This document shows positions 6,058-62,600 of a stretch of DNA of 64,000 nt, piece after piece. Position 1 is the first letter of the stretch, and the number at the start of each line of letters is the position of its first letter. The notes beneath the pieces were generated by a model that had not been told where the DNA came from, made no database searches, and saw only the letters and a program-made list of their open reading frames with translations. Source of the DNA: Terasakiella sp. SH-1 (GTDB taxonomy: Bacteria; Pseudomonadota; Alphaproteobacteria; Rhodospirillales; Terasakiellaceae); assembly GCF_004564135.1 (NCBI RefSeq), contig NZ_CP038255.1, forward strand, positions 3,397,501 to 3,461,500, written 5' to 3'. A program made the translations under genes and the position numbers.

Positions 6058-7071
6058 TTAAAGCTTATCTAATTCTGCCTCAATATCAAATTCACTGACG
6101 GGATCAAGGGCTTCTTCTTCTGTGATCTGACCAGATTTTCCGTGATGACCATGGCTGAGACGATGAAGTAAATCATCTAATTGTTCCAATGTGGAATAAT
6201 GCAGCGTCAGTGCCCCCCCCTTTGGTGACACTTTGATGTCTACTTTCACCCCAAGCAAGTCGGTTAAATCCCGTTCCAAGGCGACCGTATCAGCATCTTT
6301 TTCTTTTTTCGCCTTTGGTCGTGCCTGAACACCGGCTGTTTTCACCAGACTTTCCGTCTGGCGCACATTCAGACCTTTTTTAATGATCTGTTTGGCAATA
6401 TCAGCAGGTTCATCACAATTTAACAGCGCACGGGCATGACCTGTAGAGATCAACCCATCTTCCAAATAGGTCTTTACATCGTCTGGCAGCGCCAAAAGAC
6501 GCATCATATTGGCTACATGAGAGCGACTTTTACCCAAGGCTTTGGAAAGCGCTTCCTGCGTATGGCTGAATTCAGCCATCAAACGGTTATAGCCTTCGGC
6601 TTCTTCCAATGGTGAAAGGTCCTGGCGTTGCAGGTTTTCCACAAGGGCGATTTCAGCGGCATCACGGTCATCCATCTCTTTAACGATGACCGGAACTTCA
6701 TGAAGCTGTGCACGTTGAGAAGCCTGCCAACGGCGTTCACCCGCGATAATTTCAAACTCACCATCGCGATCTGGATGGGGGCGAACCAGAATTGGCTGTA
6801 AAATTCCTTTTTCGCGAATAGAATCGGCTAAACCTTCAATGGCCTCTTCTTCAAAGTTGGTGCGTGGTTGGTATTTTCCCGGTGATAACAAGGTGATAGA
6901 CACCGTTTTTTGATTACCACTTGAAAAAGGAACCACATTTGCCCCTTCTTCTCCTGTATCACTTTCAGAAGCGGCTATAACTTCTTGTTCTTCAACAACA
7001 CTTGCGGTTTCTTCCCCCAAAAGGGCGGAAAGGCCACGACCAAGGCTGCGGCGTTTTTTATCTTTAGCCAT
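6058..7071 (-). CDS. parB: Chromosome partitioning protein ParB
   Basis: CTP-dependent DNA clamp that binds parS sites and spreads to form the partition complex. The N-terminus KKRRSLGRGLSALLGEE is the classic ParA-contacting region. The ParB/Srx domain carries GERRW (111-115), the CTP-binding motif, and ENLQRQDLSPLEEA (145-158). A helix-turn-helix lies at about 171-192 (HTQEALSKALGKSRSHVANM), and the C-terminal dimerisation domain follows. The length of 337 aa is a little above average because of an acidic linker (24-50). It follows parA by 3 bp. Its likely sites are the parS palindromes at 8433, 10601, 17000 and (imperfect) 22934. Confidence 0.97.
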   Translation of the reverse strand: MAKDKKRRSLGRGLSALLGEETASVVEEQEVIAASESDTGEEGANVVPFSSGNQKTVSITLLSPGKYQPRTNFEEEAIEGLADSIREKGILQPILVRPHPDRDGEFEIIAGERRWQASQRAQLHEVPVIVKEMDDRDAAEIALVENLQRQDLSPLEEAEGYNRLMAEFSHTQEALSKALGKSRSHVANMMRLLALPDDVKTYLEDGLISTGHARALLNCDEPADIAKQIIKKGLNVRQTESLVKTAGVQARPKAKKEKDADTVALERDLTDLLGVKVDIKVSPKGGALTLHYSTLEQLDDLLHRLSHGHHGKSGQITEEEALDPVSEFDIEAELDKL

Positions 7072-7074
7072 TTT

Positions 7075-7875
7075 TTATGCTGCGCTCCTGTTTTCGCGTT
7101 TTAAAACTTCGCTGGCGAGATGCAAATAAGCTTTTGATCCCGCACAATTATGATCATAAAGAAGAACCGGCTTACCATGAGATGGTGCTTCAGAAACCCG
7201 AACATTTCGCGGAATGACGGTCTCATACACTTTTTCACCAAAAAAATCGCGCACATCATTAGCCACCATGTCACTGAGGTTATTGCGCTTATCAAACATG
7301 GTCAGCACAATGCCTTGAATATCAAGCTTGGCATTAAAGTTCTTTTTCACCCGATCAATAGTTTTGACCAAGGCGGATACCCCTTCCAAGGCAAAGAACT
7401 CGCATTGCAATGGCACCATCACCGCATCAGCGGCCACCAAGGCATTAATGGTCAACATGCCCAAAGCCGGTGGACAGTCAATCAGGACATAATCATAGCC
7501 AGAAATATCTTCGATGGCTTCGCGCAAGCAAAATTGCGGACGATCCAGTTCCGGAATTTCGATTTCAGCGGCGGCCAGGTCCGTACCAGACGGGATGACT
7601 TGCAAATTAGGAATATCACAGGTCTGAACAGCGGCATCAGACTCAATATCCCCCATTAAGACATGGTAGGCATTGCGGCTGCGTTGATCATGACCAATGC
7701 CAAGCCCTGTGCTGGCATTACCTTGCGGGTCCAGGTCCAAAACCAATGTCTTTTTCCCCACAGCTGCCAAAGCTGTTGCCAAATTAATGGTTGTTGTGGT
7801 TTTCCCCACCCCGCCTTTTTGGTTGGCAATCGCAATAATGCGTGGCACTTTTCCGATAGTCGCTTGATCCGTCAT
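7075..7875 (-). CDS. parA: Chromosome partitioning ATPase ParA (Soj)
   Basis: Deviant-Walker ATPase that binds nucleoid DNA non-specifically and positions ParB-parS complexes. KGGVGKTTT at residues 20-28 is the deviant Walker A motif with the signature lysine; DLDPQGNASTGLG and DCPPALGMLT are the A' and B motifs. The 266-aa length is typical. Its start overlaps the rsmG stop by 4 bp (ATGA), so translation is probably coupled. Confidence 0.97.
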   Translation of the reverse strand: MTDQATIGKVPRIIAIANQKGGVGKTTTTINLATALAAVGKKTLVLDLDPQGNASTGLGIGHDQRSRNAYHVLMGDIESDAAVQTCDIPNLQVIPSGTDLAAAEIEIPELDRPQFCLREAIEDISGYDYVLIDCPPALGMLTINALVAADAVMVPLQCEFFALEGVSALVKTIDRVKKNFNAKLDIQGIVLTMFDKRNNLSDMVANDVRDFFGEKVYETVIPRNVRVSEAPSHGKPVLLYDHNCAGSKAYLHLASEVLKRENRSAA

Positions 7876-8489
7876 TTTCGTGTCATCCTTTCGATGATAA
7901 GAATCTGCCCTTGCGGGTCAGAAAGACTTCCTTTGCTCACATAATCGAAATCCCAGTTTTTCTGGGCTTCCATAATCTCTTCGTCAGCCTTTTTCCCTTT
8001 CAGGAAAATACAGCTTCCACCCTCTTTGCGCAAAACACTTGAAAAACCCAAGAGTTTGTCCAGAGTCGCCAAAGCCCGTGATGTCACTACATCAGCAAAC
8101 TCGGCTTCTTTTACATCGTCGATTCGACAGTTATGGATGGTCACAGCTGTTTCTGTTACCCGTGCAGCTTCACGTACAAAAGCCATTTTACGCATATCAG
8201 AATCCACCAAATGTACATCTGGCACACCCATAATAGCCAAAACCAATCCGGGGAACCCTGCCCCACAACCAATATCGACCAGTGTTTTACAATTTTGAGG
8301 CAGATAGGGATAAACCTGAGCTGAATCCAGCAAATGACGGGTCCAAAGATCATCCAGTGTTGAATTGCTCACCAGATTGATTTTAGCCTGCCATTTCACC
8401 AACAGATCCCCATAGGCTTGCAACTTATCCAGTGTTTCACGTGAAACATTGAGTGCATCCCATTGATCTTGTTGTTTTGCGAAACCCAT
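7872..8489 (-). CDS. rsmG: 16S rRNA (guanine527-N7)-methyltransferase
   Basis: Methylates G527 of 16S rRNA using S-adenosylmethionine. The protein has the RsmG fold: NVSRETLDKLQAY, then WTRHLLDSAQV and VDIGCGAGFPGLVLA, the SAM-binding motif I. I start at ATG 8489 (MGFAKQQ, 205 aa) because AAGGGAT lies just upstream; the frame stays open to 8525. It lies between mnmG and parA as in most proteobacteria. A parS site is embedded in its 5' coding region (8433-8448), encoding part of NVSRETL. Confidence 0.95.
   Translation of the reverse strand: MGFAKQQDQWDALNVSRETLDKLQAYGDLLVKWQAKINLVSNSTLDDLWTRHLLDSAQVYPYLPQNCKTLVDIGCGAGFPGLVLAIMGVPDVHLVDSDMRKMAFVREAARVTETAVTIHNCRIDDVKEAEFADVVTSRALATLDKLLGFSSVLRKEGGSCIFLKGKKADEEIMEAQKNWDFDYVSKGSLSDPQGQILIIERMTRK
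8433..8448. promoter_or_regulatory. parS site 1 (ParB binding) inside rsmG
   Basis: TGTTTCACGTGAAACA is a perfect 16-bp palindrome identical to the consensus parS recognised by chromosomal ParB. It lies within the coding sequence of rsmG, about 0.56 kb upstream of the parA start. Confidence 0.95.
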
Positions 8490-10600: not shown

Positions 10601-10618
10601 GTGTTTCACGTGAAACAC
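10601..10618. promoter_or_regulatory. parS site 2 in the mnmE-mnmG spacer
   Basis: GTGTTTCACGTGAAACAC is an 18-bp perfect palindrome containing the consensus 16-bp parS. It ends one base before the mnmE stop codon. Confidence 0.95.
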
Positions 10619-23221: not shown

Positions 23222-24271
23222 TTAAATGGCTGTTTTATCGAAATTTTGAACCATTTCAACCACACGTGCCACATTCTCAGGTGGTGTTTGCGGCACAATA
23301 CCATGCCCTAAGTTGAAGATAAACGGCCCGTGGCTCATTTTTTCCAGAATATTCTGCACTTGAGCTTCCATCTGTTCACCACCCGCAACAACGGCCAGAT
23401 TATCCAAATTCCCTTGGACACAACAATGGGGCTGAAGTTCTTCAATGGCCCAATCGAGGGGCACAGTTTGGTCGATACTGACGCCATCAACCCCTGTTTC
23501 TACAACAAACTTCTTATAAAGCGGCCCTGCCCCACGGGGGAAACCGATAACAGGGATATCAGGATGGGCATCTTTAATGCGTGATGTGATTTCTTTATTG
23601 GGTTCAATCACCCAACGGTCAAACTGTTCTTCTGGCAAAACCCCTGCCCAGCTATCAAAAATTTGAACCGCTTCTGCACCGGCCTCAATCTGTTTGAGAA
23701 GATATTCAGAGGTGGCCTCAACCAGTAAATTGATTAATTCCTGAAAGAAATCAGGGTCTTGATAGGCAATCAGACGAATGGTTTCGTATGTTTTTGACCC
23801 CTTTCCTTCCACCATATAGGTCGCATTGGTCCAAGGGGCCCCTGCAAAACCAATAAGCGCTGTTGTTTCAGGAATACTCTTACTCAACCTGGAGACAGTT
23901 TCATAGACGGGGGCAAGATGGTCATGAATCCCGGTAAGGCTCAGTTTAGAAAGCTCTTCTGAATTGCGGATCGGCTCTAGCTTTGGCCCTTCGCCTTTGA
24001 TGAATTCAACTTTTTGGCCCAACGCATCGGGAATAGTCAGAATATCAGCAAAAAGAATGGCAGCATCAAAGCCATAACGACGAAGCGGTTGTAAGGTTAC
24101 TTCTTCGGCCAAATCCGGGGAATAGCAGAAATGTAGGAAGTTTTTCGATTTGGCCCGAGTTTCCAGATATTCAGGAAGATAGCGTCCTGCTTGACGCATA
24201 AGCCAGATGGGGGGGCGTTCAGTGGTTTCCCCTTTAAGGGCACGTAAGAACAATTTTTCTGAAGAGGCCAT
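23222..24271 (-). CDS. hemE: Uroporphyrinogen decarboxylase
   Basis: Decarboxylates uroporphyrinogen III to coproporphyrinogen III. The signature [16 protein letters not shown] is at the N-terminus, followed by [14 protein letters not shown] and [17 protein letters not shown] start at ATG 24271 ([12 protein letters not shown], 349 aa) with AAGGGAAG upstream; the open frame continues to 24316 into the predicted origin. hemE next to oriC is the classic arrangement in Caulobacter and Rickettsia. Confidence 0.97.
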
Positions 24272-24702
24272 AATTTTATCTTCCCTTTGATCCTTGAGTT
24301 TGCAGGAGTTATTCACAGTTCAATAACAAGTGTAAAGGTTATTTTCTTTAGTTTGTTTTTGATGATGGTCCTGTGGATAACGGGGATCAAATTTAATCCA
24401 CAGGCTGTCCCCATATGACAGGGCATTCTGACGAAAATATGGCTGAAATGGAGTCGCCCCTGTGGATGTTGATTTTTTATTTCTGGAGTCGGTTCATAAA
24501 ATTTACGGAGTCGCTTTCATCCACTTTAATTATGGGGATAACGGGGATAACATTTGAAAAATATCCATTTGTCCCCATAATGTGGCGACGCGCGGGATTT
24601 CTATCCCGATGCGGGTAACAGGGCAGATTTTTTTTGGAATTATTGGGAACAAAATAGCCCCTGTGAAAGAAACAGCGACTTATCCCCAGGTTTTGCAGAC
24701 TT
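24272..24702. other. oriC: Predicted chromosomal replication origin (oriC)
   Basis: 431-bp spacer between divergent hemE and ppsR without a credible gene. DnaA-box-like 9-mers: TTATTCACA (24309-24317), TGTGGATAA perfect (24372-24380), TAATCCACA (24394-24402), TGTGGATGT (24461-24469), TGGGGATAA (24533-24541), CGGGGATAA (24542-24550) and TTATCCCCA (24680-24688). Three GGAGTCG copies (24450, 24485, 24507) supply three GANTC sites, the CcrM methylation target in many alphaproteobacteria. AT-rich stretches (24336-24360, 24470-24482, 24626-24655) could unwind. Gene context (hemE on one side, ppsR-maf-aroE-coaE-dnaQ on the other) matches known alphaproteobacterial origins. Base composition appears to switch from C-rich to G-rich on the plus strand here. 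No TTAA-N7-TTAA CtrA box was seen. Confidence 0.87.
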
Positions 24703-25548
24703 ATGAACAACTATCACATCCATCTCGTCTCCGACTCCACAGGGGAAACCATTGAAACCCTGACACGGGCTTGTATCGCCCAGTTTGAGGGGATTTCGGT
24801 TACTGAAAATGTCTGGACACTGGTGCGTACCAGCGGTCAGGTCTCTAAAATCCTCAATGCGATTAAACAGCGTCCAGGTGTGGTAATCTTTACGATGGTA
24901 GATCGTGGGTTGCGCACCCAGCTTGAAAAAGGTTGTGAAAGTTTGGGTGTGCCCTGCATTGCCGTGCTTGATCCGATTATGTCGGCTTTCAAGGATCATT
25001 TTTGCGCCGAAGCTTCTTTTAAGCCGGGGCGCCAGCATGAAATGGATCAAAATTATTTCAATCGTATTGAGGCCATGCATTTTGCGTTGGCTCATGATGA
25101 TGGTCAGTCTACCCATGAAATTCATAAGGCGGATATTATTTTGCTGGGGGTTTCACGCACCTCAAAAACGCCAACCAGTGTTTATTTGGCTAATAAGGGG
25201 TTAAAAGTCGCCAATATTCCCATCGTACCGCAATGTCCCTTGCCGACAAATCTGACAGACCCTAAATTTTCCGGCTGTCTTATTGTCGGGCTGACCAAAG
25301 ATCCGCGTCGTCTTGTTCAGGTGCGCAAAAACCGCCTTTCCATGCTCAATGAAACCGCCATTACCGATTATGTGGATCTGGAAACTGTGGTGGAAGAAGT
25401 CCAGTTTGCCCGCAAGCTGTGTAATCGAAATTTCTGGCCGATGATTGATGTGACGCGCAAATCTATTGAAGAAACCGCCACAGCTGTCCTGAACTTGAAA
25501 ATGAAACGGGATCAGGCATATGAAGACAGCAATTGGGATGGGGAATAA
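24703..25548 (+). CDS. ppsR: Pyruvate, phosphate dikinase/phosphoenolpyruvate synthase regulatory protein (DUF299)
   Basis: Bifunctional serine/threonine kinase and phosphotransferase that inactivates or reactivates PEP synthase or PPDK. 281 aa. N-terminal HLVSDSTGETIETLTRA is the family signature, and GVSRTSKTPTSVYLANKG is the P-loop-like ADP-binding motif. The C-terminal REIG-like part (QVRKNRLSMLNE) is present. This is the first gene to the right of oriC, the position held by the DUF299 gene in Caulobacter and Rickettsia. Confidence 0.94.
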   Translation: MNNYHIHLVSDSTGETIETLTRACIAQFEGISVTENVWTLVRTSGQVSKILNAIKQRPGVVIFTMVDRGLRTQLEKGCESLGVPCIAVLDPIMSAFKDHFCAEASFKPGRQHEMDQNYFNRIEAMHFALAHDDGQSTHEIHKADIILLGVSRTSKTPTSVYLANKGLKVANIPIVPQCPLPTNLTDPKFSGCLIVGLTKDPRRLVQVRKNRLSMLNETAITDYVDLETVVEEVQFARKLCNRNFWPMIDVTRKSIEETATAVLNLKMKRDQAYEDSNWDGE

Positions 25549-32218: not shown

Positions 32219-33475
32219 ATGCGTCTTTTGTTAGTTGAGAATTCCAAGACTGTCACATCTTTGTTGATGACAGAATTGGCAAAGGTCATTGATATTCATA
32301 TTGATTGGGCTCCGTCATTATCAGATGTTTTTGAACTGATTGAAAAAAATGGGCCTCAAAATTATACACTGGCAATTTCCTGCCTGAATTTGGCCGACGC
32401 CGAAGATGGGGAAGCGGTTTCTGTTATTACGGAATTTCAAATCCCGACCATTGTTTTTTCCGGCACGTTTGAAGATTCCTTGCGTGATCAGTTTTTGCAA
32501 ATGCCAGGTGTGATTGATTATGTGGTGAAAGAAAGTCAGGCCAGTCTGACTTATCTGTGTAATATGGTGTATCGCCTGATTACCAACCGGACGATCAAGA
32601 CGTTGGTGGTTGATGGATCACGGCCTATGCGCCTGCAAGCCTGTGAATTATTGCGTCAATATCAGTTTCAGGTTTTAGAAGCAGAAAACGGTGAAGAAGC
32701 CTTAAAAATTCTGCAAGAAAACCGGGATATTAAATTGGTGGTTACGGATTATCAGATGGCCCCGGTCGATGGGTTTGAACTGACCAAAAAAATCCGTGAA
32801 ACCTATGGCAAGGATGAACTGGCGATTATCGGTTTATCGGTTGTAGAAGCCGTCAGCCTGTCAGCACGTTTTATCAAGGTTGGGGCCAATGACTTTCTTC
32901 CCCGTCCCTTCCAGCCAGAAGAATTCCATTGCCGGGTGGCACAAAATATTGAACTGATTGAAAAAACACAAAAACTTGTGGATGCGGCCACCAAGGATTT
33001 CCTCACCGGGCTTTATAACCGTCGTTTCTTTTTTGATAAGGGGGAAAAGAAATTTTCCCGTCTGAAAAATCAACGCAAACCCATCGCCATTTGTATGTTG
33101 GATATTGATCATTTTAAATCTGTAAATGACACGTTCGGTCATGATGTGGGCGATGAAGTGCTTAAAGGTGTATCTTTGCAACTTCTTTCAGCGGTGCGCA
33201 AACAGGATATGGTTGCCCGTTTGGGAGGGGAGGAATTCTGTATTTTCCTGGATGATTTTGCAGAAGGGGAACTCTTTGACATGCTGGATGCTTTGCGTGA
33301 ATCTATTGAATTCAAGCAATATGATTGCCTTGAGGATCGAGGCAATGTGACCTCCAGTTTCGGTGTTGCAAAATTCCACCCTGGTGACAGTCTGGATGAT
33401 TTGTTAAAACGTGCCGATGAATTGCTGTATCTTGCCAAACAGTCCGGGCGCAATCAGGTCATCATTGAAGACTAG
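32219..33475 (+). CDS. PleD-like diguanylate cyclase (REC-REC-GGDEF), first paralog
   Basis: 418-aa response regulator that should make cyclic di-GMP. REC1 (about 1-120) is degenerate: the phospho-acceptor position holds Cys55 in AISCLNL and the acidic pocket is E6/N7. REC2 (about 126-242) keeps Asp177 in VVTDYQM, but the Lys of the KPF motif is Arg (PRPF). The GGDEF domain has GGEEF at 336-340 and an inhibitory RxxD (R327-D330), so product inhibition is likely. It is collinear with the paralog at 34176 without gaps. Upstream of the ATG lies GAAGGGGCC. Confidence 0.93.
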   Translation: MRLLLVENSKTVTSLLMTELAKVIDIHIDWAPSLSDVFELIEKNGPQNYTLAISCLNLADAEDGEAVSVITEFQIPTIVFSGTFEDSLRDQFLQMPGVIDYVVKESQASLTYLCNMVYRLITNRTIKTLVVDGSRPMRLQACELLRQYQFQVLEAENGEEALKILQENRDIKLVVTDYQMAPVDGFELTKKIRETYGKDELAIIGLSVVEAVSLSARFIKVGANDFLPRPFQPEEFHCRVAQNIELIEKTQKLVDAATKDFLTGLYNRRFFFDKGEKKFSRLKNQRKPIAICMLDIDHFKSVNDTFGHDVGDEVLKGVSLQLLSAVRKQDMVARLGGEEFCIFLDDFAEGELFDMLDALRESIEFKQYDCLEDRGNVTSSFGVAKFHPGDSLDDLLKRADELLYLAKQSGRNQVIIED

Positions 33476-34175: not shown

Positions 34176-35432
34176 ATGTATATTTTGCTTGTTGAAAGTT
34201 CACGCACTGTTGCCTTTATGGTGATGGCTGAACTTGCCAAAACCATTGAGGCGGAAGTCCATTGGGCCTCTTCAACAGAACAGGCCCTGTTGTTTATTGA
34301 GAAAAATGGCATTGGTTATTACAAGTTTGCCATTTCCGGCTTGAACCTGTCTGATTCCAACAAGGGCGACATCATCAATGTTATTACGGAATACCAAATT
34401 CCAACGGTGATCTTTTCTGCCAGTTTTGATTTGCTGGTTCGCCAGAAATTGCTCAGTATTCCGGGCGTTGTTGATTATGTTGTAAAAGAAAGCCCCGCTG
34501 CGTTTCGTTATCTTGCCAATTTGATTTATCGTTTGGCCCATAACAAGGGGCTCAAGGCATTGGTGGTGGAAGAAGACCGATCCACACGTTTATATATCAC
34601 CGAACTATTGCGCCAGTATGAATTTAAGGTACTGGAAACAGATAGCGGTGAGGAAGCCGTTGATATTATTGAACAACATGAAGATCTGAAATTGGTGGTC
34701 ACCGATTATAAAATGCAGCCCATGGACGGGTTTGAGCTGATCAAAAAAATCCGCGAACGACATAGTAAAGAAGAATTGGCTATTATTGGCTTGTCGGAAA
34801 GCAACGAACAGGCCCTGTCTGCACGCTTTATTAAAACTGGTGCCAATGACTTTTTGATCAAACCGTTCCATCCTGAAGAGTTTTTCTGTCGGGTGACTCA
34901 AAACATTGAATTGATTGAAAAAACCCAGAAATTGCTGGATGGGGCGATGAAGGACTTCCTGACCGGGGTGTTTAATCGTCGTTATTTCCTTGATCAAGGT
35001 GCTGAAAACCTTGAACGGCTGCATTATGAAGGCAAAGATGCCTGGGTCAGTATTCTGGACATCGACCATTTTAAATCCATCAATGATAATTATGGTCATG
35101 ATGTGGGTGATGAGGTGTTAAAATCTTTATCTGCCCAATTGAAAAACAGCTTAAGAGCCAATGATATTCTTGCCCGTCTTGGCGGTGAAGAATTTGGCCT
35201 GATTATTGAAGCGGTGGATCGTCCGCAAATTGAAAAACTATTGGAGCGTATTCGCAAAAGAATTGAATCTAAACCCTATGAGTCTTTAAAAGAACGCCGC
35301 AATGTAACTGCCAGTTTTGGCTGTGTAAAATTGCAAAGCGGGGAAGAATTAGGTGAGGCGCTTAAACGGGCAGACAAAATGCTCTATCAGGCAAAGGAAA
35401 GCGGGCGTAATAAGGTGGTTATCGGCGAATAA
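34176..35432 (+). CDS. PleD-like diguanylate cyclase (REC-REC-GGDEF), second paralog
   Basis: 418 aa, same layout and residue numbering as the protein at 32219. REC1 is degenerate (Gly55 in AISGLNL where Asp is expected). REC2 keeps Asp177 (VVTDYKM) and the Lys of IKPF, so it should accept phosphate. GGEEF is at 336-340 and the RxxD I-site is R327-D330 (RAND). The presence of KPF here and PRPF in the first paralog suggests different input sensitivity. No histidine kinase lies nearby. About 100 bp separate it from the Coq4-like gene upstream. Confidence 0.93.
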   Translation: MYILLVESSRTVAFMVMAELAKTIEAEVHWASSTEQALLFIEKNGIGYYKFAISGLNLSDSNKGDIINVITEYQIPTVIFSASFDLLVRQKLLSIPGVVDYVVKESPAAFRYLANLIYRLAHNKGLKALVVEEDRSTRLYITELLRQYEFKVLETDSGEEAVDIIEQHEDLKLVVTDYKMQPMDGFELIKKIRERHSKEELAIIGLSESNEQALSARFIKTGANDFLIKPFHPEEFFCRVTQNIELIEKTQKLLDGAMKDFLTGVFNRRYFLDQGAENLERLHYEGKDAWVSILDIDHFKSINDNYGHDVGDEVLKSLSAQLKNSLRANDILARLGGEEFGLIIEAVDRPQIEKLLERIRKRIESKPYESLKERRNVTASFGCVKLQSGEELGEALKRADKMLYQAKESGRNKVVIGE

Positions 35433-49710: not shown

Positions 49711-49941
49711 ATGACACAGAGCAGTGTATTTAAGAATAATCAAACACAAGCTGTTCGTATCCCTAAGGCTGTTGCATTACCGGAACATATAAAAAAGGTG
49801 GATGTCATCAAACAGGGGAATGCACGCCTTATTGTGCCCAGTGATTGTCTTTGGGACAGTTTTTTCGATGGAGAGCAGCCAAGCGATGATTTTATGGTTG
49901 AGCGCTCTGAACCTGAAATGCAGGTGCGTGAGGAACTGTAA
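49711..49941 (+). CDS. vapB: VapB-type antitoxin (AbrB/MazE-like)
   Basis: 76-aa DNA-binding antitoxin. The N-terminus SSVFKNNQTQAVRIPKAVALP is the swapped-hairpin AbrB fold of VapB, and the acidic tail (DDFMVERSEPEMQVREEL) would bind the toxin. I start at ATG 49711 with GAGGTG upstream (the frame reaches 49702). The stop shares one base with the vapC start (TAATG). Confidence 0.92.
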   Translation: MTQSSVFKNNQTQAVRIPKAVALPEHIKKVDVIKQGNARLIVPSDCLWDSFFDGEQPSDDFMVERSEPEMQVREEL

Positions 49942-50342
49942 TGTTACGCTATATGCTGGATACGAACATTTGTATTTTTGTGATTAAAAACCGCCCTGAA
50001 CATATGCGCGCTGTTTTTAATGAAAAATCTCATTCTATGTGTGTATCCGCCATTACTGTTGCTGAATTGATCTATGGTGCTGAAAAATCAGTACAAAAAG
50101 AGAAAAACCTGAAAGTGGTTGAGGGTTTTTTGTCCCGCCTTGAAACTCTTGATTTTGATGAGGAAGCGGCAAACCATTACGGCGAGATTCGTGCTGCGCT
50201 TGAAAAAAAAGGTTTACCTATCGGGCCTTATGATTTGATGTTGGCAGGACATTCGCGTTCACGTGGTTTGGTGATGGTGACAAATAATACACGGGAATTT
50301 TCCCGTGTTGATGGGTTACGTTTAGAGGATTGGAGTCAATAA
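49941..50342 (+). CDS. vapC: VapC-type PIN-domain toxin
   Basis: 133-aa ribonuclease toxin. PIN-domain acidic residues: Asp7 (MLDTN), Glu42 (VAELIYG), Asp98 (GPYDLMLAGH) and the last acidic site near Glu119 (TNNTREF). Closest in style to FitB/VapC of the AbrB-paired group. It ends directly at the lutB start with no spacer, so it seems to have been inserted between lutA and lutB with the original lutB start kept. Confidence 0.93.
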   Translation: MLRYMLDTNICIFVIKNRPEHMRAVFNEKSHSMCVSAITVAELIYGAEKSVQKEKNLKVVEGFLSRLETLDFDEEAANHYGEIRAALEKKGLPIGPYDLMLAGHSRSRGLVMVTNNTREFSRVDGLRLEDWSQ

Positions 50343-61963: not shown

Positions 61964-62600
61964 CACATCTCAAGTGCAATTTTGAAGATTGTGAAAGAAT
62001 GCCTCGGCGGGTGTCCTGAACCCAAGGGATTTTCTGGGTGTGGTGTTTAAGTTCCATGTAATGTCATCAATGTCCTGATCGCTATCATCCTTGATGTCTG
62101 TTTTTCGCGGCATGTCCCGCCGAATAATGCCATTTGTGTTTTCCATACCGCCATGTTGCCAAGGTGAATGCGGGTTACAAAAGTAGGCTTCGATGTCCAA
62201 AACGTCTTCGATCTCGGCAAAATGAGCAAACTCACCGCCATTATCAAAAGTGATTGTTTTCAGTGCCTCTGATGGTAAGTCAGCAAGCCTTTCCTGTATA
62301 TTCTGAGCCGTTTCAGCCGCTGTTTTTGTCTGCAGGGAAGCCGTTAATGTAAAACGCGTCTTGCGTTCCATCAGCGTGAGCAAGTTGCTTTTTGGTGTTC
62401 GGAGATTCATCAAGTCACCTTCCCAATGCCCGAAGGTCTTTCGTCCTTCCACTTCCTTGGGCGGTCATGGATGAAACGGCGGTTTTCCAAAGGTTCACGC
62501 CTGCGTTTGTAATATCGCCGATCTCGCTTTGCCTTGGCTCTGGGGAGATAGCGATAGAGCTTGTCCAGCTTGATTTTCGGATGCGGTAAAGATAACGATA
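61964..62600 (-). pseudogene. IS30-family transposase remnant with frameshift
   Basis: The longest frame (61970-62452) holds the DDE part: KTFGHWEGDLMN, TFDNGGEFAHF, NPHSPWQHGGMENTNGIIRR and SLGFRTPAEAFF. Upstream, in another frame, 62453-62600 encodes KLDKLYRYLPRAKAKRDRRY and RREPLENRRFIHDRP, clearly the same protein. A single base is missing around 62454-62460 (an A in the ...CCCAA... run). The N-terminal DNA-binding domain is gone, cut at the IS1595 end. The element's 3' end lies near 61960, inside the IS630 fragment. Confidence 0.85.

Follow-up and report, generated by a model that had tools for sequence, protein, structure and literature searches.

This locus raises the question of whether the intergenic spacer between hemE and ppsR in Terasakiella sp. 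SH-1 is the chromosomal replication origin (oriC) and, if so, through which of its elements DnaA would open the duplex. The stretch analyzed, called the window below, comprises 64,000 nucleotides (3,397,501-3,461,500 of a single-contig genome of 3,832,570 bases), and coordinates are those of the window unless otherwise indicated. The spacer (24272..24702, no strand) is flanked on the left by hemE, encoding uroporphyrinogen decarboxylase (23222..24271, minus strand; TIGR01464, E 1.2e-126), and on the right by ppsR, encoding a COG1806 (DUF299) regulator (24703..25548, plus strand; NF003742, E 7e-98). An earlier sequence-only reading of this DNA had proposed the spacer as an origin and named the neighbors; the names hemE, ppsR, aroE, coaE, and dnaQ were borne out by NCBIfam matches above cut-off, whereas the Maf-like gene gave matches that all fell under their cut-offs. 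No Rfam family was found at the gathering threshold in 23800-25000. The proposal itself was supported by the skew flip, synteny, conservation within the genus, and the nearby parS sites and parAB genes. We conclude that the spacer very likely serves as the oriC of the Terasakiella chromosome, with a probability of about 0.9; its position in the skew, its box cluster, its conservation, and its neighbors all agree with this.

Strand skew was sampled in forty 8-kb stretches, approximately 96 kb apart and amounting to 13% of the genome. The results showed that the sign of the GC skew was as predicted for an origin at the spacer and a terminus opposite to it in 39 of the 40 stretches. Along the arm that starts at 3.47 Mb, passes the contig end, and stops at 1.44 Mb, the skew was positive in all 20 stretches (the weakest at +0.003), and along the other arm (1.53 to 3.35 Mb) it was negative in 19 of 20, the exception being +0.029 at 2.683 Mb. 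By this sampling, the sign flips at the spacer, which places it at the skew origin of the replicon, and again between approximately 1.45 and 1.53 Mb, a noisy terminus zone that includes the arithmetical antipode of the spacer (1.506 Mb). No convincing dif site was found near the antipode, the best match to a gammaproteobacterial consensus having four mismatches. A skew minimum elsewhere on the chromosome had been named as the observation that would speak against the proposal, and in the 13% sample the sign change was found at the spacer. Within the window, the plus strand had been described as C-rich to the left and G-rich to the right, and the skew was indeed mostly negative on the left and positive on the right. 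The cumulative GC-skew minimum of the window was tied between 20655 and 23889, so that a second, equally deep minimum sits 3.6 kb to the left, and the keto minimum falls at 24084, next to the spacer.

The contig starts at dnaA (contig positions 1-1371), approximately 410 kb from the spacer. An origin beside dnaA was rejected, because the skew was positive in both of the neighboring sampled stretches (3.737 Mb and contig positions 1-8000). Since the contig has been rotated to dnaA, approximately 410 kb off the skew origin, its coordinate 1 cannot be read as the origin.

Partition functions are encoded nearby. The parB and parA genes occupy 6058..7875 on the minus strand; ParB scored above cut-off with TIGR00180, and ParA was recognized by ParA/MinD-type models, all below cut-off. 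Two parS sites, TGTTTCACGTGAAACA at 8433..8448 and at 10602..10617 (no strand), match TGTTNCACGTGNAACA exactly. They are the only exact matches in the genome, and both lie near parAB, 13.7-15.8 kb from the spacer. Other features of the window were tentatively recognized by eye: two adjacent paralogous frames for a PleD-like response-regulator diguanylate cyclase (32219-33475 and 34176-35432, at most 11 kb from the origin), a short frame for a PIN-domain (VapC-type) toxin (49941-50342), and a frame resembling part of an IS30-type transposase beside sugar-nucleotide genes (61970-62452).

To place the locus among its relatives, we collected spacers from three sets of genomes. The divergent hemE-ppsR arrangement, which is that of the hemE-COG1806 origins of Alphaproteobacteria, was found in 34/34 and 29/29 loci of two sets and in 19/26 of a third set of short stretches, giving 77 non-duplicate spacers. 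The seven short stretches lacking a credible hemE (L101, L108, L109, L111-L114) were dropped; they comprise only 721 bases each, and a longer spacer would look alike. Repeated rows were also removed (L072-L075, named records that duplicate genus rows, and L140, a duplicate of L092). In the order sample, PpsR was matched in 55 of 60 genomes and spacers were obtained from 49; in the class sample it was matched in 99 of 144, loci were taken from the best 30 of these 99, and 28 new ones were used. PpsR was 88% identical to that of Terasakiella brassicae and 85% to that of T. pusilla, and the genus matches include two metagenome-assembled genomes titled Methylocystaceae.

The spacers of the six genus genomes are 65-74% identical. 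The boxes and GANTC sites named in the sequence-only reading were invariant at 68 of 76 positions, compared with 133 of 355 elsewhere in the spacer; the box at 24309 was left out of this count, since it falls within a longer block. When the blocks marked after alignment were subtracted from the remainder, 53 of 261 positions were invariant.

The DnaA boxes form a cluster well beyond chance. A perfect box had been claimed at 24372-24380 and was confirmed as TTATCCACA on the minus strand. Six further near-matches had been listed; those at 24309, 24394, 24533, and 24680 proved to have one mismatch, whereas those at 24461 and 24542 have two. Five boxes with at most one mismatch thus lie in 431 bp, compared with approximately 0.12 expected (17.26 per 64 kb by chance). 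When 431-bp windows were moved in steps of 50 over 485,816 sampled bases (486 kb), the single window with five boxes and all four windows with four boxes overlapped the spacer, and the maximum elsewhere was three. The spacer is, therefore, the densest DnaA-box cluster of the sampled DNA.

From the hemE side, the first box is TTATTCACA (24309..24317, plus strand), identical in all six genus genomes. The perfect box (24372..24380, minus strand; invariant 9/9) is the proximal member of a tandem pair, of which the distal member is a weak box-like sequence, CGGGGATCA (24381..24389, minus strand; invariant 9/9). The latter fits a GGGGAT core that was seen at the same place in many relatives in a profile of 51 genomes. 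An inverted box, TAATCCACA, follows at 24394..24402 (plus strand; invariant 8/9), and a weak box with two mismatches at 24461..24469 (minus strand; invariant 7/9). A second tandem, with a 9-bp period, consists of the variants TTATCCCCA (24533..24541) and TTATCCCCG (24542..24550; two mismatches), both on the minus strand; as a unit, GGGGATAANGGGGATAA occurs once in the genome when one mismatch is allowed. A weak box-like sequence with two mismatches, TTGTCCCCA, lies at 24569..24577 (plus strand; invariant 7/9), and a further copy of TTATCCCCA adjoins ppsR at 24680..24688 (plus strand; invariant 8/9). The weak tandem member at 24381-24389, TTGTCCCCA at 24569, and the triplets at 24353-24367 described below were absent from the earlier reading. 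Further two-mismatch matches at 24517 and 24610 are probably due to chance.

Perfect DnaA boxes were also seen outside the window. Among the first places listed of 136, fifteen with an exact spacing of 549 bp lie at contig positions 395661-403355 (L078), within a frame that is open across all 11.5 kb of 394000-405500 and resembles an adhesin-like repeat protein by eye. Since this array lies inside a repeat-protein frame, we did not treat it as a DnaA-titration array; it could titrate DnaA and is probably incidental. Three perfect boxes with a spacing of 306 bp lie in another repeat-protein frame at contig positions 1024500-1027000 (L084).

The location and gene order of the spacer are ordinary for Alphaproteobacteria. 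The origins of Caulobacter crescentus (Cori) and Rickettsia are described, in the portion of PMC1914354 consulted, as similar spacers between hemE and COG1806 with more than 400 bp, DnaA boxes, and an AT-rich tract. The Terasakiella spacer differs from Cori in its boxes, having a perfect DnaA box and TTATCCCC variants, compared with the G- and W-boxes reported for Cori (PMC4468827, in part). The less ordinary part is the sequence beside hemE, where the layout suggests an unwinding module that is plausibly a variant of the DnaA-trio arrangement.

This putative module begins with an AT-rich tract at 24305..24352 (no strand), which includes TTATT at 24339-24343 and is proposed as the DNA unwinding element. 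The tract, a block chosen after alignment, is invariant at 43 of 48 positions within the genus. The earlier claim of AT-rich tracts was correct, the effect being moderate: 24309-24358 is the weakest 50-bp duplex of the spacer, and 508 of the 63,951 50-bp windows of the whole stretch are weaker. The tract is followed on the plus strand by the triplets TTG TTT TTG ATG ATG (24353..24367), which resemble DnaA-trios and have T as the central base in the frame chosen, and by the linker GTCC (24368..24371), which joins the triplets to the tandem boxes. DnaA would load on the tandem pair at 24372-24389 as well as on the scattered boxes, extend leftwards as an oligomer that crosses the short linker and engages the plus strand of the triplets, and melt the AT-rich tract beside hemE, where the helicase would be loaded; bidirectional forks would then meet near 1.5 Mb. 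That the origin opens through the triplets in this manner is a proposal to which we give about even odds.

A similar layout was found in distant spacers. From the hemE side, they begin with a tract rich in A and T, which is followed by 5'-TNG-3' triplets (for example TAGTAGTTGTAG); a short G/C linker then leads to DnaA-box-like sites, which often end in GGGGATTA. Outside the genus, 55 of 71 genomes had at least three in-frame TNG triplets in the hemE-proximal 200 nt: 37 of 43 from the rest of the order and 18 of 28 from the rest of the class (the latter from the best 30 of 99). Within the genus, only three of the six genomes had them (58 of 77 overall). For the order, class, and genus, shuffled sequences gave means of 2.0, 1.4, and 0.5, and the reverse strand gave 3, 0, and 0, respectively. 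No such array was found in the adjoining 200 nt of the same genomes, and a run of three TNG is absent from the triplets of the window itself. Outside the genus, 48 of the 55 arrays were followed within 30 nt by a GNGGATN core, which in 28 lay at an offset of 13-14, compared with 162 of 1540 control windows. The ungapped profile of 51 genomes, which was anchored on the first GGGGAT and did not assume triplets beforehand, displayed an A-rich tract and a three-base rhythm of moderate strength, after which came a linker, a box of the GTGAA type, and the GGGGAT box.

The central bases of the triplets outside the genus were A in 98, T in 86, G in 36, and C in 2 cases, both C coming from one doubtful run (L110); the arrays had been identified through the T and G on either side of the centre. 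At other places in the distal spacer, TNG had A in 9%, C in 26%, G in 33%, and T in 31%. Thus, A is strongly and T somewhat favored in the arrays, and G and C are depleted. With A remaining the most favored base overall, the class shows mainly a W (A or T) pattern and not a loss of A. In Terasakiella, the centre was T in 30 of 30 cases (five triplets in six genomes, by eye), provided that G is framed as the third base. Compared with the class profile, the triplets of this genus stop one base farther away from the tandem boxes, so that the frame is a choice; another frame yields a few A centres in the genomes with ATG (GAT GAT in the window).

These features invite comparison with the DnaA-trio of Bacillus subtilis, in which, as far as the consulted parts of PMC10721633, PMC8287927, and PMC6669920 describe it, an AT-rich tract, triplets, a linker, and two co-oriented boxes occur in the same order and strand sense. 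The central A of the B. subtilis triplets is contacted by Asn187, C being about equal and T and G poorer; the contact with the amino group of the central base is regarded as the basis of specific opening (PMC10721633, in part). The centres are A, T, and sometimes G across the alphaproteobacterial class, and T in Terasakiella in the chosen frame. The published criterion for a basal unwinding system (BUS) is three or more 3'-NAN-5' trios no farther than 16 bp from a DnaA box, and BUS elements were predicted in 1755 of 2070 species (PMC8287927, in part); some alphaproteobacterial arrays are, therefore, probably among those predictions. When the plus strand was searched at the two tandem boxes, three such trios within 16 bp were found in none of the six Terasakiella genomes in any frame and in 13 of the 52 others. 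Two of the six Terasakiella genomes (L043 and L046) have a 3'-NAN-5' run at other weak boxes, and the spacer of the window has none. Tandem co-oriented boxes do lie beside the triplets, the second being weak. The spacer thus appears BUS-like by its layout, and we have not filed it as a BUS member.

Two other origins share parts of this arrangement. In the Thermotoga maritima eTrio, TTATT, three TAG triplets, and boxes are reported in the same order (PMC10316083, in part); Terasakiella has TTG and ATG instead of TAG, and the T. maritima DnaA has Asn at position 187. In the unwinding element of Escherichia coli oriC, TTG and TTATT lie on one strand beside boxes, as they do here, according to the portions consulted of PMC10316083 and PMC10797057. 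This leads to a different explanation of the triplets, namely that the spacer is the oriC and the triplets either belong to a single-strand tract of the TTGT/TTATT kind for looped-back DnaA or have no role. The presence of TTATT at 24339-24343 together with TTG repeats, the reported binding of E. coli DnaA to TTGT and TTATT (PMC10316083, in part), and the failure of the published trio rule, with no central A in the chosen frame, are consistent with this explanation. The class-wide three-base rhythm and the preferred distance to co-oriented tandem boxes fit a filament, and no IHF site for looping was found in the spacer: one single-mismatch match was present where 1.2 were expected, and a looser pattern gave no match. 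Terasakiella also differs from E. coli in having the three-base rhythm by the tandem boxes and other flanking genes. We regard the looped-back tract, or the lack of any role, as possible, if doubtful, and the filament on the triplets as the preferred proposal.

If DnaA reads the triplets, its residue at the Asn187 position should be considered. This position is Tyr (Tyr192) in Terasakiella sp. SH-1, and Arg202 is replaced by Lys. Among the best-scoring loci (30 per search), the Asn187 position was Tyr in 55, Phe in 4, and His in 2 of 61 other alphaproteobacterial loci; in 26 loci from other classes of the phylum it was A in 7, N in 7, T in 6, Q in 4, and S in 2. Thus, Tyr, Phe, or His occurred in 61/61 alphaproteobacterial versus 0/26 other-class loci, the latter not being independent, as all seven rows with N come from one family. 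Lys at the Arg202 position was found in 59/59 alphaproteobacterial loci and, since it also occurs in 19/26 of the other-class loci, is not class-specific; Glu228 was conserved at every locus compared. Since Asn is missing from position 187 in other classes as well, the residue alone cannot define a code. The aromatic residue and the W centre appear correlated along one branch, and a single ancestral change could explain this. Our tentative suggestion, more speculative than the origin assignment, is that Alphaproteobacteria may use a DnaA-trio code of their own, for the most part 3'-GWT-5' (5'-TWG-3'), which would be read via the aromatic residue that replaces Asn187, and that Terasakiella may be an extreme in which the central adenine, required in B. 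subtilis, has been lost from every triplet. An alphaproteobacterial triplet code is not described in the parts consulted of the DnaA-trio literature (PMC10316083, PMC10797057, and PMC10225481), in which subscription journals are little covered.

The control of the origin was considered from the GANTC and CtrA sites. Three GGAGTCG repeats, giving three GANTC sites within 63 bp, had been noted in the spacer, and all three sites (24451, 24486, and 24508) were found there: TGGAGTCG at 24449..24456 (GANTC at 24451-24455; invariant 8/8), GGAGTCG at 24485..24491 (invariant 7/7), and GGAGTCG at 24507..24513 (invariant 6/7), none assigned to a strand. Three other groups of three GANTC sites within 60 bp occurred in the 485,816 sampled bases. 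Across the window (1-64000), GANTC is depleted approximately 2.6-fold, with 90 observed and 232 expected. Per kb, spacers and flanking genes (the latter counted only in loci of at least 2 kb) contained 7.31 versus 0.88 sites in the genus, 4.15 versus 2.35 in the rest of the order, and 7.27 versus 1.58 in the rest of the class. The density in the spacer is partly expected, because GANTC is enriched in the intergenic DNA of most alphaproteobacterial chromosomes (PMC8116508, in part). The genome encodes GcrA and a CcrM-like protein, a 364-residue adenine methyltransferase frame with a RAMA domain; among 14 control genomes, the RAMA domain was found in Caulobacter alone. As candidate targets of CcrM, the three sites would become hemimethylated once the origin fires, and they could mark the new origin or act on hemE/ppsR transcription. 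That they mark or time the origin is an inference.

The genome also encodes CtrA, scoring above the NF045991 cut-off, and control of the origin by CtrA through divergent sites would agree with the three loose TTWW-N7-TTWW matches in the spacer, where 0.84 were expected. One of these coincides with the DnaA box at 24680 and is missing from some relatives. The absence of a TTAA-N7-TTAA box from the spacer, reported earlier, held even when one mismatch was allowed, and there were no strict sites in 34 spacers, with one near-site each in L058 and L062. The loss of CtrA is reported to have no negative effect on the growth or viability of Rhodospirillum centenum and Magnetospirillum magneticum (PMC8116508, in part), and the absence of sites fits this dispensability. 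Nothing found here supports direct gating by CtrA, and the remark that such control may be absent stands; divergent sites could still serve CtrA, which we consider improbable. As strict CtrA sites are absent, we have not filed the spacer as a CtrA-gated Cori, from which it differs in that neither CtrA nor IHF sites were found.

A reading in which the hemE/ppsR spacer is no more than a divergent promoter region and DnaA-regulated locus, with the true origin at most some tens of kb away, for example close to parAB or at the second GC minimum, is very unlikely: the tie between 20,655 and 23,889 and the intergenic enrichment of GANTC in the class (PMC8116508, in part) would allow it, but the keto minimum lies against the spacer, 431-bp windows of the 64 kb away from it hold at most three boxes, the hemE-ppsR arrangement recurs in the 77 genomes, of which 58 have the triplet arrays on the hemE side, and the three weak sigma-70-like matches from the promoter scan, compared with 0.9 expected, are confined to the distal half, with none within the hemE-side block.

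The origin itself adds a well-supported oriC to a genome whose contig starts at dnaA. Whether other DnaA proteins read other sequences was left open in the BUS structure paper (PMC10721633, in part). In a class that lacks Asn187 and whose origins are often T-centred, this question of specificity may be testable by the swap of one residue or one base.
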